This document shows positions 1 through 20,849 of a DNA stretch of 21,070 bases, piece by piece. The number at the start of each line of letters is the position of its first letter. The stretch's first letter is position 1. Source of the stretch: a virus. The DNA is taken from positions 1-21,070 of IMG/VR virus record IMGVR_UViG_3300009181_000425. One strand, written 5' to 3'. The notes under the pieces were generated by a model. That model ran no database searches and was not told the origin of the DNA. It was given only the letters and a program-made list of their open reading frames with translations. Both the position numbers and the translations under genes were made by a program.

Positions 1-380
1 CAACCCGGCGCTGCAGCGCGCCAACCCCCCCCTCGGCAAAGCCAAAGCGAGTCTGCACGGCCCTCAAAAAGGCGGTGCAAGCAGTGGTGGTGCGCGGCTC
101 TAGGCCAACCTTTGAAAAGGCCCAGTCGAGACATTCTATCGCCCTTTCCTTGGGAAAGGCTTCTAGGCTGGGAGCAGCTTCAGGAAAGTAAGACAGGGGC
201 GATTCACGGTGGCGACCAGCGTCTATCCAAGTCCTCAGCAGGGAGAGGCAGGCTGCTACCTGGCGGACGTTAAAGTCGCGGTCTTCCTTGGATGCCAAGT
301 CGTCCAGGATGCGCCTCCAGGTGATGTGCTGCACGCTGACACGAGGGTGCTCGCTGCAAAGACGGAGAGCCCCCAGTCGT
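1..380 (-). CDS. Partial GC-rich coding-like frame, exon-like, product unknown
   Basis: On the minus strand one frame stays open from about 475 to the window edge. From 380 down to 1 it reads as a believable protein of about 126 residues, with charged and hydrophobic residues well mixed and a strong preference for G or C at third codon positions. It contains no methionine. Upstream on the minus strand lies a long C/T tract (about 389-455 on +) followed by CTACTTGAG. This resembles a eukaryotic polypyrimidine tract and AG acceptor, which would place the exon start near 380. GC content is far above that of the phage genes. I do not recognise the product. The alternatives are a high-GC bacterial gene fragment starting at a TTG, or a chance open frame: GC-rich DNA has few stops, and another frame on the + strand is also open here. 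That it is coding is inferred. Confidence 0.35.
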
Positions 381-465
381 CTCAAGTAGGGGTGTGGGGG
401 GGGGATGGGGAAGGGGGAAGGGAAAAAAGAAGTGGGGGTGAGAGTGAGAGAGGGATAGCCTAATC
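381..465 (-). other. Polypurine/polypyrimidine tract at composition junction
   Basis: The + strand is almost pure purine from about 389 to 456, with runs of G7 or longer and an A6; read on the minus strand it is a C/T tract ending in AG. It separates GC-rich sequence on the left from AT-rich, phage-like sequence on the right, with the change falling at about 460-470. It could be the end of an intron, a low-complexity site where an assembly was wrongly joined, or both. Confidence 0.4.
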
Positions 466-539
466 GTATAGTGAATCAAATTGGGTAATAGCATGCATGT
501 GCACAGACTACTTAACAAGGACGACAACTAACAATACGG

Positions 540-1303: not shown

Positions 1304-1840
1304 ATGATAGACAGTATCAATATTGATGTATTGCCTCCTAAGAAGAAAAAGGCAGGTAGACCAAAAGGTACAGGAAGTTTAACATCTTCTAAAGCTATAG
1401 CCCCTCAATTTTTGATTATGTGTAAACAAGGGTTATCTTTAACCCAGATAGCAGATAAACTATCTCTACCAAAAGAACAATTAGAAAGATGGTCAAGAGA
1501 TAAAGTTAAACATAAGGAATTTGTTAAAGCATTTGAATTAGGAAAAACGGCATGGCAAGCATATCATGAAACTCTTCTACAGAAGATGATATGTGGTGAA
1601 GATGGTAAGTATGCCTCAGCTGAGATATCCGCACAACAGTTCGTATTAAAGACTCAGTTTAAATCTGAGTGGACTGAAAAGAATGATCAGAAGTTAGAGA
1701 TATCCCATGTTGGTAGATTGACTGATGACCAGTTAGAACAGCAGATAATGCAGTTACTCGGTAAGTCACAGATACAGTCTTACATCTTAAATGAACAAGA
1801 CAATAAACCTAAGTTAGTAGTTAATAATGACATTAAATAA
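1304..1840 (+). CDS. terS: Terminase small subunit (DNA-packaging recognition protein)
   Basis: This 178-residue protein most likely recognises the phage DNA packaging site and loads it onto the large terminase. Residues 10-24 are lysine-rich followed by AGRPKGTG, an AT-hook-like segment. Residues about 43-64 (LSLTQIADKLSLPKEQLERW) form a helix-turn-helix of the type found at the N-terminus of small terminases. The C-terminal half is helical and charged, as expected for oligomerisation and contact with the large subunit. The size fits the family (about 140-190 residues). The ATG at 1304 has only a weak AAGAAG about 12 nt upstream. The end overlaps the large terminase start by 14 nt, so the two are probably translationally coupled. 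The assignment rests on the HTH, size and position rather than strong motif identity. Confidence 0.82.
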   Translation: MIDSINIDVLPPKKKKAGRPKGTGSLTSSKAIAPQFLIMCKQGLSLTQIADKLSLPKEQLERWSRDKVKHKEFVKAFELGKTAWQAYHETLLQKMICGEDGKYASAEISAQQFVLKTQFKSEWTEKNDQKLEISHVGRLTDDQLEQQIMQLLGKSQIQSYILNEQDNKPKLVVNNDIK

Positions 1841-3341
1841 TATTACTAAAGGTTTATCTAAAGACCAGAAGATAGACTTACTAAAGTCATTACAAGAACT
1901 AGATGTACGCCTTAAATATAATAAAGCTAAAACATACTTCCCAGAGACAGGGCCTTTATCGATAGATAAGTTCCCTAAACAGATAGCATTTATGAATGCA
2001 GGTGTAGGGTTCTTAGAAAGATGCTTATTAGGTTCTAATAGATCTGGTAAGTCTGAAACATGTGCATTTGAGATATACCTACACGCTACTGGTGCCTATG
2101 CTGACCATCCATGGTTCAAAGGCATGAAGTTTAATCCAGCTGAAGATATCAATATCTGGATTGGTGGTGTAAGCCATGGTGACGTTAGAGATATTCAGCA
2201 ATACAAGCTCCTAGGACCTGCGCATAGCATAGGTACTGGTCTTATACCTAAAGACTCAATACTCGACGTACGGTCGAAACCAGGCGTTCCTAATGCCTAT
2301 TCCGAAGTAGTCATTAAAAGAGCAGGTGGTGGACTAGCTACCTTAAGCTTTAAATCATATGAACAAGGCCGGGAATCATTCCAAGGTACCTCAGTTCATT
2401 TCGTAGGTTTAGATGAAGAATGCCCTCAAGATGTATATGAGGAGTGTGTAACTCGTTGTGCTACCGTTAATGGTCGTATAGCCTTATACTTTACTCCTCT
2501 GTCGGGCCTATCAGATACAGTATTACATTTCTTACCACAAGGTAGGATGCCATTAGACCATATAGTACCGGGACGTTCTGCCTATGTAGAACAGGTAACA
2601 TGGAATGATGTACCAGAGGCAATGCTGCCAGCTGAAATGAAAGTACAGCTAGAAGCCACCTATTTGCCTCACCAGCGTGAAGCTCGTATGAAGGGTATAC
2701 CAGTAGTGGGTAGTGGTAAAGTATTCACTACACCTGAATCCACATGCGTTGTAGAGCCTTTCAGGATACCACTTCATTTCACTAAGTTCTACTCAGTGGA
2801 CATAGGCTATAAGTGCACAGCAGCACTCTGGTTTGCTCAAGACCCAGTTACCAATACGTTATATGTTTATGATGAGTACTATAGCGAAGAAGCATTACCT
2901 TCAACACATGTAGCTGCAATTAAAAGAAGAGGAGAATGGATGACAGGAGTAATAGATCCTTCAGCCTTGAAGACCTCTTCACACGATGGATTAAAGTCAT
3001 TCCAAATCTATAAAGATATGGGATTAGACTTAAGATTAGGGGATAATAGAGTACAGGCCGGCATCATGGAATGTAACAATAAGCTAAGTACTGGAGGTGT
3101 TAAATTCTTTAGTACCTTGACAAAAACCCTAGAAGAGTATAGACTATATAGATACCACACCAATAAAAAGACGGGTGTAACAGAGATAGCGAAAGGACAA
3201 AAGGACCACGCAATGGATGCTTTTAGGTATGGAGTAATGTCCAATCATATAGGTCAAATCTATCGAGATTCCGACGACGAGACAGTATATACTTCCCGAC
3301 TAAACAATCACTTAGGTAGAAACCCTACAACAGGATATTAA
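1827..3341 (+). CDS. terL: Terminase large subunit (packaging ATPase-nuclease)
   Basis: The 504-residue motor protein hydrolyses ATP to drive phage DNA through the portal and cuts the concatemer. The N-terminal ATPase shows a Walker A loop GSNRSGKSE (69-77), a Walker B strand and catalytic acid VGLDEE (193-198), and a coupling segment LYFTPLSGLSD (220-230). The C-terminal RNase H-like nuclease shows its acidic residues in SVDIGY (D325), VIDPSA (D377) and KDHAMDAFRY (D460, D464). Length and motif order are complete, with no frameshift or lost catalytic residue. The gene overlaps the small terminase by 14 nt and is followed after 5 nt by the portal gene. The GxNRSGKS form of Walker A is common in podovirus terminases. 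I am confident of the function; whether packaging is headful or site-specific cannot be read from the sequence. Confidence 0.96.
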   Translation: MTLNNITKGLSKDQKIDLLKSLQELDVRLKYNKAKTYFPETGPLSIDKFPKQIAFMNAGVGFLERCLLGSNRSGKSETCAFEIYLHATGAYADHPWFKGMKFNPAEDINIWIGGVSHGDVRDIQQYKLLGPAHSIGTGLIPKDSILDVRSKPGVPNAYSEVVIKRAGGGLATLSFKSYEQGRESFQGTSVHFVGLDEECPQDVYEECVTRCATVNGRIALYFTPLSGLSDTVLHFLPQGRMPLDHIVPGRSAYVEQVTWNDVPEAMLPAEMKVQLEATYLPHQREARMKGIPVVGSGKVFTTPESTCVVEPFRIPLHFTKFYSVDIGYKCTAALWFAQDPVTNTLYVYDEYYSEEALPSTHVAAIKRRGEWMTGVIDPSALKTSSHDGLKSFQIYKDMGLDLRLGDNRVQAGIMECNNKLSTGGVKFFSTLTKTLEEYRLYRYHTNKKTGVTEIAKGQKDHAMDAFRYGVMSNHIGQIYRDSDDETVYTSRLNNHLGRNPTTGY

Positions 3342-3346
3342 CTACG

Positions 3347-5416
3347 ATGTCAGATAACGACGAACTAAAAGAAGTTAAAGCTAGGAATCTAGAAGATTTA
3401 GCCGGCATGGATAATGTTGCTGAACTTCTAACAGAAGAAGAACTAGAAGTTATAGGCGCTAAAGTTGTAAAAGAGTGGGACATAGATAAGAAGTCTATGC
3501 ATAAATGGATGGATACCGCAGCAGAAGCCATGAAGCTTTGCTTATTGGAAAAGGAACAAAAGGATACTCCATGGGTTGGAGCATCTAATATTCATTACCC
3601 ATTAATAGCTACAGCTGTTATGCAGTTCTCATCTCGTTCAGTTGCTGAGATGTCAAAGTCAGGTAAAGTAGCTAAATACAAAGTATTAGGCAAAGATAGA
3701 GATGGATTGAAAGCTAAGAAAGGATGGAGAGTATCTCAACATCTTAACTGGCAAATCCAAGAAAAGATGCCAAACTGGTTCTCAGAAAGAGATAAGTTAC
3801 ACAACCAATTAGCAGTTGTAGGTACTTGCTTTACGAAGACTTACTACGACCCAATAACAGAACAGAATAAATCTGAGCTTGTACCTTATGACCAAATATT
3901 CATTAACAATGGAATTAAGAATATTGAGTCAGCAGGTCGTATATCGCAACTGATATATCTAACTGGCAATGACATAGTAGAACATCAAAGATATGGTTTA
4001 TTCTTAGATGAATATAAACCTGAAGATATGGTAATGGATGAGAATGACCCAGAACCAATTTATCATGAACTGCTAGAACAACATACATATTTAGACTTAG
4101 ATAAAGACGGCTTAAAAGAACCCTATATTGTTGTGTATCACATTGCACATAAATGTGTTCTACGTATAGCCCCAAGATTCGAATTTCTAGAAGATCGAAC
4201 AGTATTCCTAAATGATAAAGGACAAGTAAAGAGAATAGTAGCTGAAGAATACTTCACTGACTATCACTTCATTCCATCTCCTGATGGTAGCTTCTTTAGT
4301 TTAGGTTTTGGTACATTGTTATTAGATACTAACCATACCATCAATACTTTATTAAATCAGTTAATTAATGCTGGTACATTAGCCACAGTTCAAGGTGGTT
4401 TCATCGGCAAAGATTTAAGAATAAAGAAAGATGATATGTTACTTGGGCCTGGGGATTGGGTAACTGTAGATTCATCTTCAGGTGCTTCGATAAAAGATAA
4501 CATAGTCCCAATGTCATATAAAGAACCTTCAATGGTTCTATTACAGTTATTAGGCCAGTTGGTCGAAGGTGCTAATAATTTAACGTCTACTAGTGAAGTA
4601 TTAACCGGCACCACAGACGTAACTAACGCATCACCTAACTCAGTTGCAATGTTAATGCAACAAGGTTTAAAAGTATACAGTTCTATTCAACGACGTATAT
4701 TTAGAGGGTTTAGAAAAGAGCTACAAAAGCTTGTAAGATTAAATTCAAGACATTTAAACGAACAAGAATACTTAACTCTAATTGACCCAGAACAAAAAGA
4801 CCTTCAAGAGTTGTACGATGAATTTGGTCGCATTAAAGATTACGTATTAGAAAGCTTAGACATAGTTCCAATTGTAGATATTGAAGATTCTACAGAATTA
4901 GAGGCTATGAATAAAGCTCAATCAATAATGCAAGCAGGGTTACAGTTCGCTCAAATGGGCGCCACAGACCCTACCATGTTAGCAGTTACATATTATAAAG
5001 CGATGGATGTTGAGAACATAGAAGCATTAGTTCCTCCTCCTCCGCAACAGGAACAACCAAATCCTGATATGATAAAAATGCAACAAGACATTCAAATCAA
5101 GATGAAGGAACTTGAGTTAAAAGAACAAGGAATGCACATATCTGCAGCAGAGACTGAAGCTAGAATAAAAGAAATAGAAGCTAACACTGCGAAGATAATG
5201 GCAGAAACTCAAGCAACTCCAGCTAGATTACAGTTAGAAGCTTCAAGACAAAAACAAGTAGACCAAGATAGTAGAGTAAGACATATACTAGATGCTGCTA
5301 AATTAAAGTCTGGAGACGATAATGAACGAGAATATCAAAACATTGAGCGTGACAAGGTTGCGGCAATGGCTAGAAGATCCGGTAACACTGGCCCTAATAA
5401 AGGCCCTACAGGTTAG
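3347..5416 (+). CDS. Portal protein, P22-like large type
   Basis: The 689-residue protein should form the dodecameric ring at one capsid vertex through which DNA is pumped and later released. Residues 75-87, PWVGASNIHYPLI, followed by an alanine/serine-rich helix, match the signature at the start of the portal core in P22-type portals. A second conserved-looking stretch is VVGTCFTKTYYDP (about 156-168). After a proline-rich hinge (about 562-570) comes a long charged coiled coil (about 575-670), corresponding to the barrel helix of the P22 portal that projects into the head. The size is close to that of P22 gp1 (725 residues) and larger than typical siphovirus portals. It directly follows the large terminase. 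The last 95 nt also encode the start of the next gene in another frame. Confidence 0.92.
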   Translation: MSDNDELKEVKARNLEDLAGMDNVAELLTEEELEVIGAKVVKEWDIDKKSMHKWMDTAAEAMKLCLLEKEQKDTPWVGASNIHYPLIATAVMQFSSRSVAEMSKSGKVAKYKVLGKDRDGLKAKKGWRVSQHLNWQIQEKMPNWFSERDKLHNQLAVVGTCFTKTYYDPITEQNKSELVPYDQIFINNGIKNIESAGRISQLIYLTGNDIVEHQRYGLFLDEYKPEDMVMDENDPEPIYHELLEQHTYLDLDKDGLKEPYIVVYHIAHKCVLRIAPRFEFLEDRTVFLNDKGQVKRIVAEEYFTDYHFIPSPDGSFFSLGFGTLLLDTNHTINTLLNQLINAGTLATVQGGFIGKDLRIKKDDMLLGPGDWVTVDSSSGASIKDNIVPMSYKEPSMVLLQLLGQLVEGANNLTSTSEVLTGTTDVTNASPNSVAMLMQQGLKVYSSIQRRIFRGFRKELQKLVRLNSRHLNEQEYLTLIDPEQKDLQELYDEFGRIKDYVLESLDIVPIVDIEDSTELEAMNKAQSIMQAGLQFAQMGATDPTMLAVTYYKAMDVENIEALVPPPPQQEQPNPDMIKMQQDIQIKMKELELKEQGMHISAAETEARIKEIEANTAKIMAETQATPARLQLEASRQKQVDQDSRVRHILDAAKLKSGDDNEREYQNIERDKVAAMARRSGNTGPNKGPTG

Positions 5417-5576
5417 AACTGATGGGTTATATCAAAGCCTTGTTAAGATACAACTACAAGACAATTACGACTTAAAAATAGCAGAAAATAGAGGTAGGAT
5501 TTTAGAACTACAAACTATTTCAGACATGTCAAAACTAAAAGATTTATTAAATGAACATGTTAATTGGGAGGAGTAA
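5322..5576 (+). CDS. Small phage protein overlapping the portal gene
   Basis: The 84-residue protein starts inside the portal gene (95-nt overlap, different frame) and ends 3 nt before the co-chaperonin gene. After a variable start it contains LRQWLEDPVTLALIKAL (about 13-29), an amphipathic segment of a kind I recall from small proteins in phage head modules. The rest is helical and charged and ends in NEHVNWEE. Because the frame continues well past the portal stop and has a sensible sequence, I think it is real. The exact start is uncertain: the ATG at 5322 is the first available and no strong ribosome-binding site is evident, and GTG 5349 is a later possibility. Function is unknown; a minor head or assembly role is suggested only by position. 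Confidence 0.68.
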   Translation: MNENIKTLSVTRLRQWLEDPVTLALIKALQVRTDGLYQSLVKIQLQDNYDLKIAENRGRILELQTISDMSKLKDLLNEHVNWEE

Positions 5577-5579
5577 TTT

Positions 5580-5909
5580 ATGCCAGTACCTTTAGGTTAC
5601 CGAGTTAGTATTCTGATGGATAAAACAGAAGAGAAAATTGGTAGTATCTTTATACCAGAAAAAACTCGTATGTTATCTGATGAATGCTCAGAAACTGGAA
5701 CAATATTAGAATTAGGTCCTTTAGCGTATAGAGGATTAGCAAATGGTGAATCCAAAGAACCATGGGTAAAACCTGGTGATAGGGTTTACTTTAAAGCTTA
5801 CGGTGGTCAAAAGTTCAGCTTCGAATCCGGTCGTAAGATACGCATAGTAAATGATGAAGACATCATTGCTTTAGTCTCAGAAGAAGATAAAACCGACAAA
5901 TTACTTTAG
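5580..5909 (+). CDS. GroES-like co-chaperonin (Cpn10 family)
   Basis: The 109-residue protein resembles bacterial GroES, the lid that works with GroEL to fold proteins in the cytoplasm. It opens with a Cpn10-like strand (LGYRVSILMD, 5-14). The candidate mobile loop around 18-38 includes GSIFIPE, where I-F-I would replace the hydrophobic tripeptide that binds GroEL. ILELGP (42-47), KPGDRVYF (64-71) and RIVNDEDIIALV (88-99) follow, in family order. A glycine/charged insertion at about 51-62 sits where the roof loop lies. The likely client is the capsid protein encoded downstream, by analogy with T4 gp31; that is inference. An AGGAG ribosome-binding site overlaps the end of the previous gene. 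No GroEL gene is seen, so it would use the host one. Confidence 0.88.
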   Translation: MPVPLGYRVSILMDKTEEKIGSIFIPEKTRMLSDECSETGTILELGPLAYRGLANGESKEPWVKPGDRVYFKAYGGQKFSFESGRKIRIVNDEDIIALVSEEDKTDKLL

Positions 5910-5921
5910 GAGTAATATTAA

Positions 5922-6728
5922 ATGACAGATGAAGTAAGTTCAGATGTTCAACAAGCCCCAGTCGAAGCTGTAGTAGGGGTCAATCAGACCAGTACAATAA
6001 GCGTAGAAGATCAGGCACGGGGAGATGGATGGGTACCGTTAGACGAATTTAAAGGTAACCCAGATAATTGGGCAGATGCAAAGGAATTTGTACGAGTCGG
6101 TAAGATAATAAAAGGAAGAGACGAAAAAGCTAACAAGCTTGAAAAAGAAATTAAAGAGTTGAAAAACATTACCAAAAGTATGTTATCAACAATGCAAAAA
6201 GCAGAACAAGTCGCATACGATAAGGCTGCTAGAGATTTAGAAGCTAGATTGGCACGAGCCAAAGATATAGGAGACGTAGAGGAAGCTCTAGACGTAACCC
6301 AAAAACAACAACAGTTGATGGAGCAAGTTAAAGTCCAACATGCTCAACAACAACTTTCCATTAAAGACTCTGAAGAGTTTCAAGAGTTTTTCCCACAAAA
6401 CAAATGGGTATCCGGCACAGATAGAATTTCAAAAGCTATGCAAAAAGTTGCATCTGAAATATCTAACGAATATGCCGCCAAGCACCCCAGAGCTGAGCTT
6501 AAAGATGAGCTTCAGTATGTTCATGAAGAGATTCGTAAAGAATTTCCAGAACAATTTAAATCTGAGCTTAGAAACAGCTCACAAGCATCGGTACTCGCAG
6601 GTAGTACAAGCAAACCTTCTTCTGATTCCGCAGAAAGTAAACTGACATCAGCAGAAAAGTCTATCGTTGATTTCCTCAAGAAACAAGGATATGACACAAA
6701 ATCTTATCTTAAAGCACTAGGTAAATAG
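5922..6728 (+). CDS. Probable capsid scaffolding protein
   Basis: The 268-residue acidic protein has the build of a phage scaffold. A disordered N-terminus leads into GWVPLDEFKGNPDNW (36-50), a segment I recall from proteins just upstream of capsid genes. A long charged coiled coil (about 62-145) follows, then a helical section, a Ser/Thr-rich linker (about 218-240), and a short basic C-terminal helix ending KKQGYDTKSYLKALGK. Basic C-terminal helices bind the coat protein in P22 and other scaffolds. It lies between the co-chaperonin and two virion-type genes that precede the capsid gene, the expected place. AGGAG lies 12 nt before the ATG. No protease domain is visible. Scaffold is inferred from architecture and position rather than an unmistakable domain. 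Confidence 0.75.
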   Translation: MTDEVSSDVQQAPVEAVVGVNQTSTISVEDQARGDGWVPLDEFKGNPDNWADAKEFVRVGKIIKGRDEKANKLEKEIKELKNITKSMLSTMQKAEQVAYDKAARDLEARLARAKDIGDVEEALDVTQKQQQLMEQVKVQHAQQQLSIKDSEEFQEFFPQNKWVSGTDRISKAMQKVASEISNEYAAKHPRAELKDELQYVHEEIRKEFPEQFKSELRNSSQASVLAGSTSKPSSDSAESKLTSAEKSIVDFLKKQGYDTKSYLKALGK

Positions 6729-6743
6729 TAGGAGTACTAAAAC

Positions 6744-7184
6744 ATGACTAATGAAAGAAAACCTGAAAGAGGTTCAGAAAGAATCAGTTTATCCCATAGA
6801 GGCCCACAGCATTTCCCTGCTGAGTTCAGAGATCCTAATTTCCACTATCGTTGGACTAATTATGATCCAGAATCTCCTTGGAAAGCTATGGAAACTGAAC
6901 GCTTAGGTTATGACCCTGTGCCAATCGGTGAAACTAATCACCTAAAGTCTAAGATTTTTGCACAATCAACTATCGTCCGTGAAGGATATGTAACTTGTCC
7001 CTTAAAAAAAGGGGGCCAAGCAGTTTTAATGAGACTTCCAATGGATGTTTATCTCGAAAGACAAAAACAGAAAGAGGAAGATCGTAAGGCAGAACGTAAG
7101 GCCATGCTCGCTGAAGGTATGGAAGTCTCTGACGGAACAACATTGAAACAAACATATAGTTTCACTAATACACCAAATCATTAA
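6744..7184 (+). CDS. Conserved head-module protein, function unknown
   Basis: The 146-residue hydrophilic protein has no signal peptide or membrane segment. The motif FHYRWTNYDPESPWKAMETE (about 33-52) followed by GYDPVPIGE is of a kind I recall from small proteins encoded next to phage capsid genes. The middle has a short beta-like stretch (GYVTCPLKKGGQAVLMRLP) and then a highly charged helix of K/E/R (about 108-128). It sits between the scaffold-like gene and the pre-capsid gene with AGGAG upstream of the ATG. A role in capsid assembly or as a minor head protein is likely from position only. Confidence 0.7.
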   Translation: MTNERKPERGSERISLSHRGPQHFPAEFRDPNFHYRWTNYDPESPWKAMETERLGYDPVPIGETNHLKSKIFAQSTIVREGYVTCPLKKGGQAVLMRLPMDVYLERQKQKEEDRKAERKAMLAEGMEVSDGTTLKQTYSFTNTPNH

Positions 7185-7204
7185 TCTATTTAGAGGTTAT
7201 TTAA

Positions 7205-7852
7205 ATGGCTAATCTAAACGCCAAACATGGCGCAATTGCTAAGTGCATGAGGAACGGATCAAGAGACGTCCCTTTACGCGCTTATTATGTAGCAGCTTCC
7301 TATGCTACCGCTTTATATATTGGGGACGCAGTTTCCCGTATCGCTGGGGACTCCAATACCGCAGCCATTAAACTAGCAGCAGGGGCCATGCTAGGGGGCG
7401 CTGAAGCCTTCGGCCCAGGTGCTTTGCAAAAAGTTGAACGCGCAGCTAATGGTGATACCAATGCCATTACCGGCTTCGTCCAAAAGATCGGTTTCTCTGC
7501 TGCAGATGCTTCTTGCTTCCGAGCAGGATATAAACCAGCATCAACTGAAGCCGTAGTTTTTGTTGCTGACCACCCAGATACCATTTTTGAAATGCAAGCC
7601 TCAGCTGCTTTTGTTGCAACCGATGTCGGCAAAAACACCAATATAACCGGTTCTGGTGGTTCAACGGTAACCGGCCTTGCCTCAACTGAAGCTGACTCCG
7701 CTGCAATGGCAACAGGTAACTCTACCTACCAATTGCGCATAGTTGGAGTTTCTGGTGACCCATTGAACAATGACGTAGCTGCAAATAATGCTAATATATT
7801 AGTTCAAATCAACAATCACACTGACGTAGACGTCGCTAAGGCAGGGGTATAA
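7205..7852 (+). CDS. Probable capsid-associated virion protein
   Basis: This 215-residue, Ala/Gly-rich protein ends 1 nt before the major capsid gene. It has no transmembrane or signal segment. Its N-terminal part carries RDVPLRAYYVAASYATALYIGD and a Gly/Ala core. The C-terminal part has Ser/Thr/Gly-rich beta-like stretches ending NANILVQINNHTDVD. Composition and location suggest a virion component such as a decoration or cement protein. The C-terminal pattern (values, SGDPLNNDVAANNANILVQI) looks like a beta-barrel domain. Codon use is somewhat richer in GCx and GGx than the terminase genes but still matches its neighbours. The ATG at 7205 is preceded by AGAGG. I do not recognise a named family. 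Confidence 0.65.
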   Translation: MANLNAKHGAIAKCMRNGSRDVPLRAYYVAASYATALYIGDAVSRIAGDSNTAAIKLAAGAMLGGAEAFGPGALQKVERAANGDTNAITGFVQKIGFSAADASCFRAGYKPASTEAVVFVADHPDTIFEMQASAAFVATDVGKNTNITGSGGSTVTGLASTEADSAAMATGNSTYQLRIVGVSGDPLNNDVAANNANILVQINNHTDVDVAKAGV

Positions 7853-7853
7853 C

Positions 7854-8756
7854 ATGAGTGGATCAATTTCAAGAGCAGATTGGGCACGCATGCTCGTACC
7901 TGCGGTTAACACAGTTCTAGGTGACAGCTATGCTGATTACCCAGAAGTTTATAAACAAGTCTTCAATGTAAGACAATCAGACCAAGCAGTTGAAGAATTG
8001 CTCGTTATGTCTGGCATTGGTTTATTGGAAGCTGTTGCTGAAGGCGGCAGTATCTCTAATGACCGTATGAGACAATTATATTCTATCAATTTTGCCCATG
8101 CAAAATATGGTAAAATGTTGTCAATTACCCAAGAAATGTTAGATGATGGCAAAGCTGTTAAAATCTTAGAAAAACAAGCTCGCGCTTTAAAACGTGCTGC
8201 AATGGAAACTAAGAATAAAGTAGCTATTGACATCCTCAATAACTCTACCTCTACCTTAGGCGCCGATGGCGTAGCATTATTAAGTATTGCTCACCCATCT
8301 TCTGCCGGTAACCAATCCAACAGATTAGCAGTCGATGCTGACTTGTCAGAAGCTTCAATTGAGCAATCATACATTGAAATGGCTGATATTCGCGATGACC
8401 GTGGTGTCCGCATTCAAGTAATGCCTAAGAAACTTATCGTTCCTAGAGCATTATGCTTCGAAGCCGCTAGAATCTTAGAATCCGATGGCCGTGCAAGCAC
8501 TTCAGATAACGACATTAATGCTTTAAAGATGAAAAAAATCATCTCAGAAGTAGTTGTTGTTGATCATCTAACCGATACTGATGCTTACCACTTCATTACC
8601 AACGTAGATGATGGTCTTATCATGTTCGAACGTAAAGCCTTAGGTGTTGACAGTGAACCCCACTTCGCACACGATGCTATTCAGTTCCGTGCATTGATGA
8701 GATTCTCAGTAGGTTGGGGCGATTGGAGAGGCGTTTTCGGCTCACCAGGTGCTTAA
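7854..8756 (+). CDS. Major capsid protein, Mu gpT-like HK97-fold type
   Basis: The 300-residue protein should be the main shell subunit. The opening SGSISRADWARMLVPAVNTVLGDSY, then DYPEVYKQVF, and the helical block GKMLSITQEMLDDGKAVKI resemble the Mu gpT-like major head subunit group, a HK97-fold family. A later segment RIQVMPKKLIVPRAL matches the part that in these proteins builds the A-domain strands, and the C-terminus RALMRFSVGWGDWRGVFGSPGA fits a final beta strand. No N-terminal delta domain or protease site is obvious, which fits a separate scaffold. It starts right after the previous stop with AGGGG as ribosome-binding site and is followed by a 124-nt gap holding a hairpin. Assignment is strong by position and pattern; the precise family is from memory. 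Confidence 0.85.
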   Translation: MSGSISRADWARMLVPAVNTVLGDSYADYPEVYKQVFNVRQSDQAVEELLVMSGIGLLEAVAEGGSISNDRMRQLYSINFAHAKYGKMLSITQEMLDDGKAVKILEKQARALKRAAMETKNKVAIDILNNSTSTLGADGVALLSIAHPSSAGNQSNRLAVDADLSEASIEQSYIEMADIRDDRGVRIQVMPKKLIVPRALCFEAARILESDGRASTSDNDINALKMKKIISEVVVVDHLTDTDAYHFITNVDDGLIMFERKALGVDSEPHFAHDAIQFRALMRFSVGWGDWRGVFGSPGA

Positions 8757-8810
8757 TACTCTATAGTTACCTAAAACATACAGTGTTTAAAGGATACTAA
8801 ATACTTCACA

Positions 8811-8854
8811 GTAGCTTGCCGCAAATCGACTGGAAAGGAATCCAGACAAGCTAC
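8811..8854 (+). promoter_or_regulatory. Nested hairpin between capsid gene and next block
   Basis: GTAGCTTG (8811-8818) pairs perfectly with CAAGCTAC (8847-8854). Inside, CTGGA (8830-8834) pairs with TCCAG (8841-8845) across the purine loop AAGGAA. The left side of the internal loop (8819-8829, CCGCAAATCGA) is 11 nt and the right side is 1 nt. No run of T follows, so it is not a standard intrinsic terminator. It lies 26 nt before the next start codon. It could be an RNA-processing or stability element, an attenuator that lowers read-through after the capsid gene, or a translation control element. Confidence 0.6.
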
Positions 8855-8880
8855 ACCAATTCATAAAAGGCATAATATAT

Positions 8881-9300
8881 ATGGCTAGAAGTACATTCTC
8901 AGGTCCAGTTAATTCAACCGCAGGCTTTCAAATTGCCGGCGTAGCAATAGGCTCTACCGCCGCCGAATTAAATTCACGTACTGATGATTCTGCAATGGAA
9001 GAAACCATCGCTGCAGCTGGTGCTTTAAGCACATCTGTCGCAGTTTCACATTTAGCAATAGTAGCAGGGGGTGCCGTTACTTTAGCTGCGCCAACCAAAC
9101 CAGGCTTCATAAAAATAATTGACGTAACCACTTTTGGTTCCAACGTTACACTAGCATTAACAAACGTTGTTGAAGGTACAGCAGCCACTACTGCTACATT
9201 TACCTCTACCGCAGGACGATTAGTCCTAGTATCTAACTCTGTAACCTCTGGAAAATGGATAGTGTTAAAACAGTCCGCTGCAGGATTGACATTAACATAA
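8881..9300 (+). CDS. Small beta-rich virion protein (shares a domain with the 18547 gene)
   Basis: The 139-residue protein begins with a module of the kind ARSTFSGPVNSTAGFQIAG, then STAAELN, an N-terminal pattern I recall from phage virion proteins. Residues about 52-139 form a beta-rich domain: VSHLAIVAGGAVTLAAPT, PGFIKII, NVTLALTNV, a Thr-rich loop, LVLVSN and GKWIVLK. A clearly similar pattern occurs at the C-terminus of the protein encoded at 18547-18954. There is no signal or membrane segment. It is preceded by AAAGG about 10 nt before the ATG. It is probably a decoration or accessory virion protein, but no specific function can be claimed. Confidence 0.68.
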   Translation: MARSTFSGPVNSTAGFQIAGVAIGSTAAELNSRTDDSAMEETIAAAGALSTSVAVSHLAIVAGGAVTLAAPTKPGFIKIIDVTTFGSNVTLALTNVVEGTAATTATFTSTAGRLVLVSNSVTSGKWIVLKQSAAGLTLT

Positions 9301-9318
9301 TCTTAGGAGTAATACGCA

Positions 9319-9945
9319 ATGGCTAGACCTAAAATATTCACAATTGTTCCCGTTGCCGCATCAGCTAACGACATTTGCTTATCTCAAACCAGGGCTTCTG
9401 CGGGGGCCCTAACCCTTAATGGCGCTAAAGCAGGTACCACTTTTGACTTTGCAAGAAAGTTAGATTTAGTTTCTGCGGGCAACCTTAGTGCTATTACCTT
9501 TACTTGTGTAGGAACTGACGCTGACGGAAGAGCTTTGTCTGAAGCTGTTACTGGCCCAAACGCCAATACAGTGCAAAGTACAAAATACTTCCAAACTGTA
9601 ACATCTATTACAGCATCAGCAAACATGTCAGCAGTAAATATAACTGTCGGTACGTCTGATGACTTAGCAACTAAGAAGTACTTACTTAATTTCTATGATG
9701 AAATTGCAGCCGCAATAGCAGTACACTTAACTGCCGGAACTGCTACTTTTTCAGTACAAGAAACCTACTCTACTCCAGACGGAGTAAACGACACAGAGGT
9801 ATGGATAACTCCAACAGCCCTTAGTGCCAAATCTGCTACACTTGTTGCACCTTTGGACGTACATGCTAAAGCTTGTCGGCTAATAACCACTACCTTTTCC
9901 GCTCCAACTTTAAGCTTCAATATAACACAAAGTGCCGGACTATAA
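9319..9945 (+). CDS. Conserved phage virion protein, beta-rich
   Basis: The 208-residue protein is Thr/Ala-rich and predicted to be mostly beta. Its beginning (VAASANDICLSQTRASAGALTLNGA), middle (FTCVGTDADGRALSEAVTGPN, then TKYFQTVTSITASANMSAVNITVGTSDD) and end (TTTFSAPTLSFNITQSAGL) follow a pattern I recall from small proteins in many phage structural modules. It has no transmembrane or catalytic motif. AGGAG lies 10 nt before the ATG, and the tail-fibre gene begins 4 nt after its stop. It is likely a virion component, perhaps decoration or tail attachment. The exact role is unknown and that part is inference. Confidence 0.68.
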   Translation: MARPKIFTIVPVAASANDICLSQTRASAGALTLNGAKAGTTFDFARKLDLVSAGNLSAITFTCVGTDADGRALSEAVTGPNANTVQSTKYFQTVTSITASANMSAVNITVGTSDDLATKKYLLNFYDEIAAAIAVHLTAGTATFSVQETYSTPDGVNDTEVWITPTALSAKSATLVAPLDVHAKACRLITTTFSAPTLSFNITQSAGL

Positions 9946-9949
9946 CTAA

Positions 9950-12160
9950 ATGGCAACATTTACTGGGCTGAAGCCTAAAGATACCTATGACTCAATTTTG
10001 CACGTAGAAAATAACGATACAGTAAATGCGTCGTTACAGTATGTGCAAGATGGTTATGGAAATAACACAACGATTAGAGTTTCTACCTTAGGTACCGAGA
10101 TTAACAATCCCTCCCTTATTGGTACCGTCACTCTAGGGTCCCCCTTGTCTGTGGCAAATGGGGGCTTAGGTGTTTCTTTATCTGATCCAAATGCAGATAG
10201 AATCTTATTTTGGGACGATTCAGCTGGAAGCTATACCTATTTAAGTTTAGGTACAAATTTATCCATTACTGGCACTACAATAAATGTATCAGGTGGCTTG
10301 ACCGATGCCGATTATGGAGACATAATTGTATCTGGCGCCGGCACAGTAATGACCATAGATAACTTAGCTGTTACTTATGGAAAGATACAAAATGTATCGG
10401 CTACAGATAAACTATTAGGAAGAAGTACTGCAGGCGCTGGAGTTATTGAAGAAATAACTTGCACTGGCTACGCTAGAAGCTTATTAGATGATGCCACCTC
10501 CTCAGATGCCAGAACTACATTAGGATTAGGTACATTAGCTACCCAATCTGGCACGTTCAGTGGTACTTCCTCGGGGACTAATACTGGCGACCAAACAATA
10601 ACTTTAACTGGTGACGTTACAGGTTCCGGAACAGGTTCTTTTGCTACAACTATAGCTAACGATGTTGTAACATATGCTAAAATGCAAAATGTATCAACTA
10701 CTGATAGATTATTAGGTCGGGTAAGCGCCGCTGCCGGCGATATTGAAGAAATTCCAATAACCGACTTTGTGCAAACTATATTAGATGATGCCGACGCCTC
10801 AGCTGTCAGAACTACCCTAGGATTGGGCACACTGGCCACACAGTCAGGCACTTTTAGTGGAACTTCTTCCGGCACCAATACTGGCGATCAAAATCTATTC
10901 AGTACAATAGCAGTTTCTGGACAATCTGACGTAGTAGCAGATGCGGCTTCAGATACCCTAACGTTAGTAGCTGGAGCAAATGTAACCATAACTACTAATG
11001 CTGGGACGGATACAATAACTATCGCAGCTTCCGGAGGCGGGGGCGGCGGACTTGGGGACGGAGATTATGGAGACATAACTGTATCCGGCACTAGCACGGT
11101 ATTGACTATTGATAATGATGTTGTAACATATGCAAAGATGCAAAATGTTTCAGCAACAGATAGATTACTGGGAAGAGTAAGTGCACTGGCGGGGGACGTG
11201 GAAGAAATTCCAATAACCGACTTTGTCCAGACTATTTTAGATGATACAGATGCCGCCACAGTACGGGGAACTATTGGAGCTGCTGCGAGTGGAGCCAACA
11301 CTGACCTAACTTCAGTATATTTAAACAATACTGGGTTAAAAATTAAAGATACTAATGCTTCACATGGACTTACCATTGCTCCAGGTTCTGACATTACAGC
11401 AGACAGAACTTTAACAGTGACTACTGGAGACGCGGACAGAACTTTAACCATAAGTGGAAGTACTACGCTATCGGGTGGAACACACTCAGGCACCAATACT
11501 GGGGACCAAACAATAACCCTAACGGGAGCTGTAACAGGCTCTGGTACCGGTTCTTTTGCTACATCCTATGGGGATGTTGAGATATCTTCTATTGCAGGAT
11601 TAACTTCAGCCGCAGATAGCGCACCATATTACACAGGCTCTGGAACTGCAGCATTAATGACTGTTACCTCTGCAGCAAGAACTGTATTAGATGATGCTTC
11701 AGTAGGGGCCATGTTAACAACATTAGGCGGGCAACCACTAGATGCTACATTAACATCTTTAGCTGCTTATAATACTAATGGTGTTATCTGTCAAACTTCT
11801 GCTGATACTTTTACAGGTAGGACTATCACAGGAACTGCCAATCAAGTAACAGTTACTAATGGTGATGGCGTCTCTGGGGCCCCTACTTTATCAATACCTT
11901 ATAATGTTAATCTAGGCACTAGTTCTGTAGGACCCTCTTCAATAGCTTTCTTTGAAGATACTGACTTCGGAAGCAATAAAGTTACAGTTACAACACCTAC
12001 CGCTGGCTTATCTGCAGACTATACATTTACTTTACCCCCAGACGGAGGTACAGTAGATTATGTGCTGCGCACTGACGGAACCGGAGTAACGACTTGGGTA
12101 ACTGCCGGAGTAAATCTAGGTCTTACAACATTAATGGCTCAAGGTGTATTTTCAAATTAA
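9950..12160 (+). CDS. Tail fibre protein with internal repeats
   Basis: The 736-residue Thr/Gly/Ala/Asp-rich protein has the build of a trimeric phage tail fibre. The N-terminal ~45 residues (GLKPKDTYDSILHVEN, QYVQDGYGNNTTIRVST) match a recurring N-terminal module. NGGLGVSLSDPNADRILFWD (about 70-89) is another common fibre motif. Residues about 121-314 hold two consecutive repeats of 95-99 residues with AKMQNVSxTDRLLGR, EEIPITDFVQTILDD and GTNTGDQ, a third partial copy lies at about 372-450, and a fourth short piece near 509-544. The C-terminus (VTTPTAGLSADYTFTLPPDG) is the usual end-of-fibre module, with no chaperone domain. The start has no clear ribosome-binding site and may depend on the preceding gene. 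Receptor binding is inferred. Confidence 0.85.
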   Translation: MATFTGLKPKDTYDSILHVENNDTVNASLQYVQDGYGNNTTIRVSTLGTEINNPSLIGTVTLGSPLSVANGGLGVSLSDPNADRILFWDDSAGSYTYLSLGTNLSITGTTINVSGGLTDADYGDIIVSGAGTVMTIDNLAVTYGKIQNVSATDKLLGRSTAGAGVIEEITCTGYARSLLDDATSSDARTTLGLGTLATQSGTFSGTSSGTNTGDQTITLTGDVTGSGTGSFATTIANDVVTYAKMQNVSTTDRLLGRVSAAAGDIEEIPITDFVQTILDDADASAVRTTLGLGTLATQSGTFSGTSSGTNTGDQNLFSTIAVSGQSDVVADAASDTLTLVAGANVTITTNAGTDTITIAASGGGGGGLGDGDYGDITVSGTSTVLTIDNDVVTYAKMQNVSATDRLLGRVSALAGDVEEIPITDFVQTILDDTDAATVRGTIGAAASGANTDLTSVYLNNTGLKIKDTNASHGLTIAPGSDITADRTLTVTTGDADRTLTISGSTTLSGGTHSGTNTGDQTITLTGAVTGSGTGSFATSYGDVEISSIAGLTSAADSAPYYTGSGTAALMTVTSAARTVLDDASVGAMLTTLGGQPLDATLTSLAAYNTNGVICQTSADTFTGRTITGTANQVTVTNGDGVSGAPTLSIPYNVNLGTSSVGPSSIAFFEDTDFGSNKVTVTTPTAGLSADYTFTLPPDGGTVDYVLRTDGTGVTTWVTAGVNLGLTTLMAQGVFSN
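10310..10594 (+). repeat. Tail-fibre repeat A
   Basis: First coding repeat (95 codons), from DYGDIIVSG through the GTNTGDQ motif. Its last 28 codons (10511-10594) encode exactly the same residues as the end of repeat B although 17 of the 28 codons differ. Confidence 0.8.
10595..10891 (+). repeat. Tail-fibre repeat B
   Basis: Second coding repeat (99 codons), from TITLTGDVTGSG to the second GTNTGDQ. It shares the AKMQNVSTTDRLLGR and EEIPITDFVQTILDD segments with repeat C, the latter also nearly identical in DNA. Confidence 0.8.
11063..11300 (+). repeat. Tail-fibre repeat C (partial)
   Basis: Third copy, beginning DYGDITVSG like repeat A and continuing with AKMQNVSATDRLLGR and EEIPITDFVQTILDD like repeat B. 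It then diverges to VRGTIGAAASGANTD, lacking the end seen in A and B. A fragment resembling the GTNTGDQTITLTG junction occurs again at about 11476-11580. Confidence 0.75.
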
Positions 12161-12176
12161 TAAGGGGGCTATATAA

Positions 12177-12614
12177 ATGGCAGCTGGAACAAGTCCAATT
12201 TTCACTAACGTACCAAGAAATGGTTTTGCTAAAGTAACTGGCGTCGACGGCTCTATGGACGGTATAGACGCTGACGTTAAAGTAGTATTTACTGCCCATG
12301 CTACAAATGGTAGTTTCTTGCAAAGACTTATAATGCAACCCATAAGTACTTCTGGATCTACCACCACCTCAGCAGCGTCATTGCGGGTGTACCTAAACAA
12401 TGGAAGTACGGTAGGTACCGCAGCAAATAACCAATTAATAAAAGAGTGGTCACTAGCAGCAATTGCCGTAAACGTGGCAGGAACAACAATGTCCACTGGT
12501 TATGAACTACCACTTAATATTCAAATTGCCCCAGGATACGCCATATATGTGGGCGTTACTGCAATGGCAGCTAATACGCAATGGAACATCACTTCGGTCC
12601 ATGGTGACTACTAA
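12177..12614 (+). CDS. Small fibre-associated virion protein
   Basis: The 145-residue protein begins AAGTSPIFTNVPRNGFAKVTG and has regularly spaced hydrophobic strands (VKVVFTAHATNGSFLQRLIM, SLRVYLNNGSTVGTAANNQL, YELPLNIQIAPGYAIYVGV) ending ITSVHGDY. This is a beta-sandwich-like pattern I recall from small phage proteins near fibre genes. There is no membrane segment or catalytic motif. AAGGGGG sits about 9 nt before the ATG. The stop overlaps the next start as TAATG, coupling it to the Gly-rich adhesin-like protein, so it may belong to the same tail appendage. Role inferred from context. Confidence 0.65.
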   Translation: MAAGTSPIFTNVPRNGFAKVTGVDGSMDGIDADVKVVFTAHATNGSFLQRLIMQPISTSGSTTTSAASLRVYLNNGSTVGTAANNQLIKEWSLAAIAVNVAGTTMSTGYELPLNIQIAPGYAIYVGVTAMAANTQWNITSVHGDY

Positions 12615-13567
12615 TGTACCAACAGTTTGACCATCTATATTCAGCAGGTGAAAACCTATGGATATATACTAATGCGGTAGCGGCAACTACCTCCGTTTTA
12701 AGTTGGATGGTTTGGGAAAAACCTAAGAATGCTAAAGCAGTATACATTACTGCTATTGGTGGAGGTGGTGGAGGAGGAGGTGGGGGGGCATCCCTCACAC
12801 TGACAGCAGCAGGAGGAGGAGGCGGTGGAGGAAATGGAGCAACAACCCATGCCCTTTTTCCCGCTGCTTTATTGCCAGACTTACTATATATAAAAGTTGG
12901 AGTTGGCGGAACAGGAGGAACTGGACAAGTACAAGGTGGAGCGGCAGCAACTGCCGGGGCTGCTGGTACCTCCACTGTAGTGTGTTCGGCCATGACCGCC
13001 ACCGCCTTCTTTCAATTTGTAGAAGCCCTTGGCGGCGGAGCTGGAAACTTAGGAAGTGGAGCAAGCGCAGGGGCAGCAGTAACAGCAGCGGCTGCAAGTA
13101 CAGCATCTGCACTTAGTGCAATTGGAATTACATCCTTTATTGCCGGAGAAACAGGAAAAGCTGGTAGTGCGTCAGCTGCAGGCGGGGCAGCAACTTGGGC
13201 CAATGCCACAGCAAGCACATTGTGTACCGGAGGAGCAGGAGGTGGGGCAGTAAACGCCTCCAACACTACATTTGCAGGTGGAGCAATAACCGGCGCAGGG
13301 ATTGTACCTGGTATTACTGGTGGGGCCACTGCAGGAGGTGCCGGAAGTGGTTCCTATACCAAATTATTAGACCCTTTGTTTCCTTATTTATCGCTTGGCG
13401 GTTCTGGGGGAGGAGGTAACACCCTAGTCGGAACGGGAGGAAAAGGCGGGCATGGAGGATTTGGCTCGGGTGGCGGAGGAGGGGGCGCTACAAACGGTAC
13501 CGCGGCAGTAGCAGGAGCAGGTGGAAACGGGGGAAGTGGAATAGTGTTTATTCAGGTATTAACATAA
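12614..13567 (+). CDS. Glycine-rich adhesin-like tail protein, first copy
   Basis: The 317-residue protein has a short non-repetitive N-terminus containing WMVWEKPKNAKAVYITAI, directly followed by a run of ten glycines, then many GGxGG stretches separated by short hydrophobic strands (LLPDLLYIKVGVGGTGG, YLSLGGSGGGG) and a C-terminal GNGGSGIVFIQV. This matches the glycine-rich-domain layout of phage tail proteins. Polyglycine helices that pack side by side are known in the T-even-type S16 gp38 adhesin, so host-surface binding is a reasonable guess. It is coupled by TAATG to the genes on both sides and is paralogous to the next gene in layout. A G7 run at about 12781-12787 lies inside the first glycine block. 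Confidence 0.72.
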   Translation: MYQQFDHLYSAGENLWIYTNAVAATTSVLSWMVWEKPKNAKAVYITAIGGGGGGGGGGASLTLTAAGGGGGGGNGATTHALFPAALLPDLLYIKVGVGGTGGTGQVQGGAAATAGAAGTSTVVCSAMTATAFFQFVEALGGGAGNLGSGASAGAAVTAAAASTASALSAIGITSFIAGETGKAGSASAAGGAATWANATASTLCTGGAGGGAVNASNTTFAGGAITGAGIVPGITGGATAGGAGSGSYTKLLDPLFPYLSLGGSGGGGNTLVGTGGKGGHGGFGSGGGGGGATNGTAAVAGAGGNGGSGIVFIQVLT

Positions 13568-14469
13568 TGCAAAATAGAAACACAACCGCACTAGGACAAC
13601 CCTATACCTTTTTAGTTGGACCGGCTTCGACAACCTCAGTAACTCCTAGAACGTGCATTCCAAGAGACCCAAGAAAATGTCTATTTGCCGTGCTTAATGG
13701 AGGAGGAGGCGGAGGTTCCTCTGGATGGGCAGACGTTGCAGGAGCAACTGATACTGGCGGTGGAGGAGGGGGAGCTGGAGGAGACTGCGCCCGTATTTTT
13801 GCTCCCAGTTATTTATTACCAGGAGGAATAGAAGTAAGAATTGGGCAAGGGGGCGCTGGAGGGGCAGGTTCAAGACTAGCAAGTAATGCTGGACTTGGTG
13901 GAACTAGCACTGGTTTGTTCCATGGAAACACATACCCATCTACATCTAATGGCTCGTTCATTTATGTAGCAGGTGCTGGCGGCGGGGGGCAGGCATCACT
14001 AGACACAAGTGGCGGGCTTGGGGGAAACGCAGGAGGAACAGCAGCTACAGCATATGGAATAACAACGGTATATTCACTTTCCTCTGGAACACAAGGAAAC
14101 ACGAACACAACAGCAAACACTAGTTCTCGAGACATCTCAATTTCAGCTGGCGGATGTGGTGGCGGGGGCATAACTACTACAAATATTGCTGCTGCCGGAG
14201 GAGGATATTTCTCAGATGGTTTGCTGCCAGCAATTGCAGGGCCAACAGCAAACGGTGCCCTCCAAATAAACACACTATTCAACCCATTAGTGCATAGTGC
14301 TTGTTATGGAGGAACTGGAGGCGGATCTTCTACTGCAACAGGAGGAAACGGCGGACCTGGTGGACTGGGTTGCGGCGGAGGAGGAAGTGGTGCCAGTAAT
14401 TCCGCAGCTTCAAATAGTGGGGCCGGAGGTGCCGGCGGGCCAGGTTTTGCAATATTAATAGAAATTTAA
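13567..14469 (+). CDS. Glycine-rich adhesin-like tail protein, second copy
   Basis: The 300-residue protein has the same order of parts as the preceding one. A basic N-terminus with IPRDPRKCLFAVLN leads into GGGGGG, then SYLLPGGIEVRIGQGGAGGAG (compare LLPDLLYIKVGVGGTGGTG), a variable middle, and a C-terminal GNGGPGGLG through GGPGFAILIEI. The two therefore seem to be diverged duplicates with different variable centres, as expected of receptor-binding parts under selection. No signal peptide or membrane segment is seen. It starts at the TAATG overlap with the previous gene and is followed by the holin gene. Binding role is inferred. Confidence 0.7.
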   Translation: MQNRNTTALGQPYTFLVGPASTTSVTPRTCIPRDPRKCLFAVLNGGGGGGSSGWADVAGATDTGGGGGGAGGDCARIFAPSYLLPGGIEVRIGQGGAGGAGSRLASNAGLGGTSTGLFHGNTYPSTSNGSFIYVAGAGGGGQASLDTSGGLGGNAGGTAATAYGITTVYSLSSGTQGNTNTTANTSSRDISISAGGCGGGGITTTNIAAAGGGYFSDGLLPAIAGPTANGALQINTLFNPLVHSACYGGTGGGSSTATGGNGGPGGLGCGGGGSGASNSAASNSGAGGAGGPGFAILIEI

Positions 14470-14488
14470 CACAACATAGGAGAACAAA

Positions 14489-14929
14489 ATGGGCGGCATC
14501 ATTGGCGGATTAATTTCCGCACTAGGATCAATCTTCGGTTCCTTCTTCAACACCAAGGTCAAACAAGGTGAGGTAGTAGGAACCGCAGTTGAAGCAATCA
14601 GTACATTAGCTAGCTCTAATGCAGAGAGAGAAAGAGCAGCAGCACTAGTTGTTGCAGCAGAAGCTCAATCTGATAGTTGGTTAGCTAGGAATTGGAGACC
14701 TATAACTATGACCATATTTGTAGGTTTAATTGTATCTAGATTTTTCGGCTTAGTTCCAAGTCATATGAGCCCAGCAGAATATGACAGATTATGGGATTTA
14801 GTTGAAGTGGGAATGGGCGGATATGTAGTATCTCGTTCAGTAGAGAAGATAGTGGCCGGTTTAAATTTAAGCTCAGTCTTAAAGAAATATTTAGACCAGT
14901 TAACTACAAGTAAAAGTAACAATGACTAA
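14489..14929 (+). CDS. Holin, 3-TM gene-transfer-release type
   Basis: The 146-residue inner-membrane protein should form the lesion that times cell lysis. A glycine/hydrophobic N-terminal segment (1-20), a polar helical part (about 24-60), the signature SWLARNWRP (63-71), a membrane helix (about 72-88), SPAEYDRLWDLVEVGMGGYV (94-113) entering a further hydrophobic segment, and a charged C-terminus match the 3-TM holin family first noted in gene transfer agents. TAGGAG lies before the ATG. No endolysin gene is adjacent or seen in the window, so lysis would need an enzyme encoded elsewhere. The family match is from memory but the RNWRP signature is distinctive. Confidence 0.85.
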   Translation: MGGIIGGLISALGSIFGSFFNTKVKQGEVVGTAVEAISTLASSNAERERAAALVVAAEAQSDSWLARNWRPITMTIFVGLIVSRFFGLVPSHMSPAEYDRLWDLVEVGMGGYVVSRSVEKIVAGLNLSSVLKKYLDQLTTSKSNND

Positions 14930-14959
14930 CTAGTCGTAACACATAAAAGGTAAACATAA

Positions 14960-15112
14960 ATGATTGAATTTGTAATTGGCGCAGCTGTCGGTGCTGCAGT
15001 AGTATTTTTTAAAGATGACATTATTAAATTATTCAAAGGTGAAGCAGATATTGTAGAAGCCCCTAAGGTAGAAGTACCAGTAGAAGCCCCCAAACCAGAA
15101 GAAATTAAGTAG
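14960..15112 (+). CDS. 50-residue single-span membrane protein
   Basis: The ATG at 14960 opens a 50-codon frame: IEFVIGAAVGAAVVFF gives one N-terminal membrane helix, then a short amphipathic KDDIIKLFK, then an acidic, proline-rich tail (EAPKVEVPVEAPKPEEIK). AAAAGG lies about 9 nt upstream of the ATG. It follows the holin by 30 nt. The layout (one helix plus a charged, extended tail) suits an accessory lysis or anti-holin protein, but no family is recognised. Confidence 0.65.
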   Translation: MIEFVIGAAVGAAVVFFKDDIIKLFKGEADIVEAPKVEVPVEAPKPEEIK

Positions 15113-15117
15113 ACAAC

Positions 15118-15139
15118 AAGATAACTAGTATGTTATCTT
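15118..15139 (+). terminator. AT-rich hairpin, possible weak terminator
   Basis: AAGATAAC (15118-15125) and GTTATCTT (15132-15139) are perfect 8-bp arms around a 6-nt loop. There is no strong T-run after it (AAAGATATAGTATTT follows), so termination would be weak or absent. It sits just after the 50-residue gene and before the internal promoter. Confidence 0.4.
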
Positions 15140-15169
15140 AAAGATATAGTATTTCCAGTATAACTAATG

Positions 15170-15209
15170 CGGGCATACACTTGACAAAGGTGTATACCCG
15201 TGTTACAAT
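15170..15209 (+). promoter_or_regulatory. Sigma-70 promoter inside an inverted repeat (operator candidate)
   Basis: TTGACA (15181-15186), a 17-bp spacer and TACAAT (15204-15209) make a near-consensus promoter. An inverted repeat, CGGGCATACAC (15170-15180) and GTGTATACCCG (15190-15200), with one mismatch in 11 bp, flanks the -35 box, so that box lies exactly in the loop. A dimeric regulator bound there would block or modulate RNA polymerase. Predicted start is near 15216, only about 12 nt before the ATG at 15228, so the AAGGAG ribosome-binding site would be at the very 5' end. Confidence 0.65.
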
Positions 15210-15227
15210 TTCACTAAGGAGTAAATT

Positions 15228-15413
15228 ATGCTACTTACTATGTTGCTTCAAGGATTTATTACTGCTGTAATATTTATCTTTTTAAGCTCCACTATTAGTG
15301 CTATAAAAGCTTTTATGTTTGCCCGTAAATGGAATCAATATATGAAAGAAAGGGGGGATAAGCACTATGAAGATGCGAGCGCACCTATCACTATCAAAAA
15401 ATCCGTGCACTAG
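15228..15413 (+). CDS. Small membrane protein, first of an overlapping pair
   Basis: The 61-residue protein begins with a strongly hydrophobic helix (LLTMLLQGFITAVIFIFLSS), continues with ISAIKAFMFARKWNQYMKERG, and ends with a polar tail. One membrane span with a basic cytoplasmic side is predicted. AAGGAG precedes the ATG, and a near-consensus promoter lies directly upstream. It overlaps the next gene by 47 nt in another frame. Small overlapping membrane genes near a holin could be lysis partners, but neither this nor the next shows a lipobox, so they are not a classical Rz/Rz1 pair. Confidence 0.65.
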   Translation: MLLTMLLQGFITAVIFIFLSSTISAIKAFMFARKWNQYMKERGDKHYEDASAPITIKKSVH

Positions 15414-15573
15414 ATTATTAGTTAAGATAGGCATTTATATACTTGCCGCAGTAATAGGCATAACATTAACAATTTTATATTCAATAGCCTTATTAGGTGC
15501 ATTCGCTTTATTTTATCATAGAGTCCTTAAATTTGCGCTTCATTGTATTAAACGAGCATACTTTAGAAAATGA
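15367..15573 (+). CDS. Small membrane protein, second of an overlapping pair
   Basis: The 68-residue protein starts at an ATG preceded by AGGGGGG about 9 nt away, inside the previous gene. A basic N-terminus (MKMRAHLSLSKNPCTRLLVK) precedes a hydrophobic stretch of about 35 residues (IGIYILAAVIGITLTILYSI and on to LLGAFALFYH), enough for one or two spans, then a basic end. No lipobox. It overlaps the following gene as ATGA. The 47-nt overlap with the previous gene and the own ribosome-binding site argue that both are real. Function unknown; membrane or lysis accessory is a guess. Confidence 0.6.
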   Translation: MKMRAHLSLSKNPCTRLLVKIGIYILAAVIGITLTILYSIALLGAFALFYHRVLKFALHCIKRAYFRK

Positions 15574-16085: not shown

Positions 16086-16088
16086 ACC

Positions 16089-18954: not shown

Positions 18955-18970
18955 GAGGGGATTACCTTTG
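18954..18970 (+). promoter_or_regulatory. Ribosome-binding site that decides a TTG start
   Basis: AGAGGGGA (18954-18961) begins at the last base of the previous gene's stop and lies 6 nt before the TTG at 18968. No other in-frame start is near, so the gene most likely begins with TTG. Confidence 0.6.
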
Positions 18971-20848: not shown

Positions 20849-20849
20849 T

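Follow-up and report, generated by a model that had tools for sequence, protein, structure and literature searches.

A GC-rich, exon-like left end on a tailed-phage contig and its likely eukaryotic origin

The first 460 or so bases of this virus record differ sharply from the phage DNA that follows them, and the most likely explanation, which we would put slightly above an even bet, is an artefactual join of eukaryotic DNA onto a phage contig. The window analysed here is the entire record (1-21070; 21,070 bases). At its left end we observe a composition break, a tract that is purine-rich on one strand and pyrimidine-rich on the other, an open frame, no phage or bacterial match, and a second contig of the same phage that stops inside the tract; from these we infer a eukaryotic origin, splicing and the artefactual nature of the join. 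Bases 1 to about 460 would then not be part of the phage and would have no function in it. They would represent a small fragment of a eukaryotic nuclear gene, itself GC-rich, on the minus strand: a pyrimidine-rich intron end, then a 3' splice site, for which 354 is the best candidate, then an internal exon truncated where the contig ends. The piece would have been joined to the tailed-phage genome through chimerism of a library molecule or through misassembly, at or near the purine tract, which is difficult to sequence. The eukaryotic origin, which the initial annotation had proposed, is likely rather than demonstrated: codon choice and the pyrimidine tract agree better with a eukaryotic gene than with a bacterial one of 61% GC, but the splice AG first cited is poor and no homologue was found in the phage, plasmid, bacterial and curated-family collections searched. 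As a matter of data quality, the first 460 or so bases should be flagged before genes are counted or a host is inferred.

Rightwards from 1304 the window is a tailed-phage virion module, with small and large terminase, portal, GroES-like, major head, tail-fibre-like and head-closure proteins. On the plus strand lie the terminase small subunit (1304-1840; phrog_309, E 1.1e-09), the terminase large subunit (1827-3341; PF03237, E 4.7e-16; 433 phage records matched), the portal protein (3347-5416; phrog_1216, E 8e-15) and the major head protein (7854-8756; PF25209, E 1.2e-14; phrog_133, E 2.1e-22). The head module also holds a GroES-like co-chaperonin gene (5580-5909; Cpn10, E 5.2e-10), annotated likewise in podovirus ct2G2228. 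Further to the right, two neighbouring glycine-rich proteins (12614-14469), the first of which matches Gly_rich_2 (E 2.9e-08), make up a GC-rich island of about 50-56% within the phage.

Between the left end and the terminase genes, on the phage side, lies an AT-rich non-coding leader (463-1303; 841 bases, 35% GC). No RNA families and no tRNAs were found around the join or in the leader, the region 386-1303 gave only short, weak matches to phages (best E 0.3), and promoter-like sites in 380-1400 are near expectation (6, against 4.2 in shuffled sequence). The leader has short repeats, AAGATCGGCAAT twice (at 737 and 792) together with TATATAAGT motifs. A non-coding leader is not odd in itself, since a phage contig whose terminase is 31% identical to this one (L015) likewise lacks ORFs of at least 70 aa over about 2 kb ahead of its terminase genes; the oddity of the left end is the GC-rich frame with its pyrimidine tract, not the leader. 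In a separate observation on L015 (5700-6040) and the near-identical phage contig L016 (1-145), about 0.3 kb is missing from L016, and both edges of that stretch in L015 carry the same repeat of about 36 bases, as if recombination between direct repeats had removed it.

The change in composition at the left end is abrupt. GC content is 0.61 in 1-385 and 0.60 in 386-462, then 0.35 in 463-1303 and 0.40 in 1304-21070. The best likelihood split of 1-1300 falls at 454, with nine of the ten top split points at 453-462 and the tenth at 466, so the break at 453-466, as abrupt as would be looked for in a chimeric contig, marks the likely border between foreign-looking DNA and phage. The initial annotation, which placed a sudden shift near 460-470, was essentially right: DNA of 61% GC gives way there to DNA of 35%.

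To the left of this border, the minus-strand frame at 2-385 is open for 128 codons and is the sole stop-free frame among the six in 1-390; its GC content by codon position is 0.64/0.52/0.67. Its only listed start is a TTG that sits behind the pyrimidine tract, not behind a purine-rich ribosome site. It contains zero ATG codons, so the absence of methionine from some 126 codons, remarked on earlier, is real, if by itself of little weight. The length of the frame is not significant alone, and the open frame is to that extent weaker evidence than first claimed, since the stop-free run of 156 codons observed within 470 bases is reached by 9.35% of 2000 Markov sequences; stop codons are absent from pure pyrimidine stretches on their own strand. 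Structure prediction gives the frame stronger support as a gene than its length does. Folded as a single sequence with no alignment, its 128 residues are predicted to form six helices (pTM 0.59, mean pLDDT 61.6, 48 residues at pLDDT 70-90), whereas the overlapping plus-strand frame at 1-273, the one control used and a shorter one (90 residues), gives one helix, pTM 0.15, mean pLDDT 56.7 and 0 residues at 70 or above. The low confidence of residues 1-20 (pLDDT below 50) is more in keeping with coding sequence that starts near 353 than at 385. The putative internal exon of a eukaryotic gene would span 2-353 on the minus strand, with 117 full codons from 352 and no stop, cut by the contig end.

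Codon choice in this frame, read from 352 to 2, differs from that of the GC-rich ORFs compared. AGA or AGG encodes 4 of 14 arginines, TTT all 7 of 7 phenylalanines and ATA 2 of 4 isoleucines, compared with AGR 4/236, TTT 7/74 and ATA 5/126 in six terminase ORFs from GC-rich loci (66.6% GC; Fisher p 0.0004, 1e-6 and 0.014, respectively). On these small counts and few comparison ORFs, codon choice speaks against the segment being an ordinary bacterial gene of high GC. The same codons are frequent in the genes of the phage itself (AGR 140/205, TTT 95/175, ATA 155/333 over 19 ORFs), so that by themselves these counts do not tell segment and phage apart; the difference between them lies in GC content. 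Codon comparison, which the initial annotation suggested for the two sides, thus distinguishes the left end from the six GC-rich phage-type ORFs but not from the ORFs of the phage to which it is joined.

Searches with the minus-strand frame found no significant relative in Pfam, NCBIfam, PHROGs (0 families), PDB sequences, phage records (by tblastn) or plasmid records. Nor was a relative found in IMG/VR or GTDB genomes, in protein scans that need exact eight-residue words and so reach close relatives only and would miss distant homologues. The DNA of 1-462 has no similarity to phages by blastn, and one 25-base stretch from the GC-rich side has no exact copies in IMG/VR, in a scan that may leave out records very close to the window. 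A bacterial or phage match over 1-380, which the initial annotation had named as the result that would tell against it, did not turn up in the phage, plasmid, bacterial and curated-family collections searched. The Pfam and AF2 results likewise point to no named eukaryotic family. Foldseek returned 0 matches of the predicted fold in the PDB at E 0.001 or better, and the helical-repeat proteins that it listed, none of which reached that value, were not used. Rhabdo_ncap_2 (Pfam; E 0.19) came out under its cut-off and was taken as chance.

The tract occupies 379-462, where it is 82% purine on the plus strand and hence pyrimidine-rich on the minus strand, as a putative intron end; positions 396-462 are common to the second contig. 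In its best 78-base stretch, 67/78 positions are purine on the plus strand, the most extreme purine or pyrimidine 78-mer among the loci compared (maximum in compared loci of other phages, 62/78). The pyrimidine tract noted at the outset is thus both real and extreme, and this half of the splice-site argument holds. The other half does not stand as it was put: the AG beside the tract (minus strand, about 381) scores 0.19 as an acceptor and ranks 929 of 2884 AGs, counted over both strands of the window and scored with an acceptor profile that was not fitted. A better candidate 3' splice site lies at 354-355 on the minus strand (TCTCCGTCTTTGCAG followed by C), scoring 10.14 with the same profile and ranking 8 of 2884. 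Seven other AGs of the window outscore it, so that it is not exceptional for 21 kb, and by proportion about 0.2 sites as strong would be expected in 470 bases. As at the junction of an intron and an exon, then, the pyrimidine tract at 379-462 runs ahead of a candidate acceptor at 354.

How did the tract and the phage come to be joined? IMG/VR contig 3300027754_000366 (26,547 bases), from the same phage, matches window 396-21070, its end falling inside the tract at 395/396. It differs from the window by three SNPs clustered at third codon positions (14421, 14424 and 14427), which are successive third positions of the ORF at 13567-14469 and the sole differences outside the tract, and by five substitutions within the tract (406-423), four of them to G. 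The five fall in the last 28 aligned bases of the contig, with none elsewhere up to 13338. Those 28 bases agree with the window at 23 positions, a level that 761 of 100,000 shuffles of them also reach, so the tract end in both contigs is probably the same sequence, badly read. Two more patterns, one from the tract and one from the phage side, led in IMG/VR to no other contig, in scans that may leave out records very near the window, and neither the portal nor the head-closure protein, used to look for closer phage relatives, brought up any contig but this one. At its far end (L028, 3-242) is a Sigma-70 region 4 domain (E 8.8e-10); judging from this match, the phage may carry a sigma-like factor of its own.

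The join between tract and phage has thus been assembled twice and bases 1-394 once, in the window only, the only other contig of the phage lacking 1-394 and carrying part of the tract, with its end at 395. Any chimera must therefore allow for a tract joined to the phage twice. This counts against an artefact: a one-off chimera would not be expected to recur in a second contig that is three third-position SNPs away from the first, except where both come from a single library or the point of fusion is left of 396. A single library may have been assembled twice, or the contigs may come from neighbouring samples. The join is shared by two libraries or by repeat assemblies of one, or else it lies at or left of about 396. 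With the tract assigned to a eukaryotic intron, physical DNA molecules would have carried the join at about 454-462, produced by library chimerism or, improbably, by a real insertion; with the tract assigned to the phage, the misjoin would be at 396 or further left. Chimerism, as the initial annotation had it, remains the best reading, though the second contig makes it less simple than it had seemed.

The main rival, possible though on balance doubtful, makes the segment prokaryotic, either an accessory gene of the phage that happens to be GC-rich or DNA of a bacterial host flanking a prophage; the minus-strand gene would then be an ordinary one and the purine tract a product of chance. A eukaryotic match is not among the results, distant homologues would escape the exact-word GTDB and IMG/VR scans, some relatives of the terminase lie in bacterial genomes, and the phage has another GC-rich island (about 50-56%, at 12750-14500), all of which a prokaryotic segment would accommodate. 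It accommodates less well the lack of any phage, plasmid or curated-family match, a codon choice unlike that of the compared GC-rich ORFs (though n = 6), and a sole listed start that is a TTG after a pyrimidine tract, with no purine-rich ribosome site.

Two further alternatives concern the place and reality of the join. The tract could be the phage's own and only bases 1 to about 395 foreign, a misassembly having fused, within it, two purine-rich stretches of unrelated origin; this would account for a second contig that breaks off at 396 while still in the tract, and for bases 1-394 being seen once. We consider it unlikely, because the tract keeps a uniform character across 396 (82% purine over 379-462), such extreme purine tracts are absent from the compared loci of other phages, and composition breaks at 453-466, not at 396. 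Harder still to credit is a real junction, in which all or much of a tailed-phage genome sits in nature beside a eukaryotic gene with introns, and slightly different strains of it gave rise to the two assemblies. The three clustered third-position SNPs do indicate that the two contigs, both with the tract-phage join, are not mere copies of one consensus, but the phage genes are long, intact and like a normal virion module, the exon is in one contig only, and the contigs may share a site or library. We know of no phage insertion next to an intron-bearing eukaryotic gene, and none is reported in the titles or abstract openings of the papers listed. If true, such a junction would place tailed-phage DNA beside a eukaryotic gene, which would be a rarity.

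An artefactual join of eukaryotic DNA onto the phage, the reading we prefer, finds its closest likeness in chimeric metagenome contigs of phage and eukaryotic DNA, which the window resembles in the abrupt composition change near the contig end at a low-complexity tract and in the foreign-looking coding sequence beyond it, and from which it differs in that its tract-phage part was recovered in two contigs. With a spliced eukaryotic gene, seen as the 3' end of an intron and the exon that follows, the left end shares the pyrimidine tract, the NCAG acceptor candidate at 354 and the open frame after it, whereas a 5' splice site does not come into view. On the phage side, EBPR podovirus 1 (JF412294; the best-listed named terminase relative, 42% identical) and podovirus ct2G2228 (MW202785; terminase likewise about 42% identical) have the same terminase-portal-coat order as the window, and ct2G2228 also has a GroES-like gene after its portal gene, as the window does at 5580-5909. 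Upstream of the terminase both podoviruses carry annotated phage genes, in contrast to the window, which carries there the pyrimidine-tract segment with its GC-rich frame.
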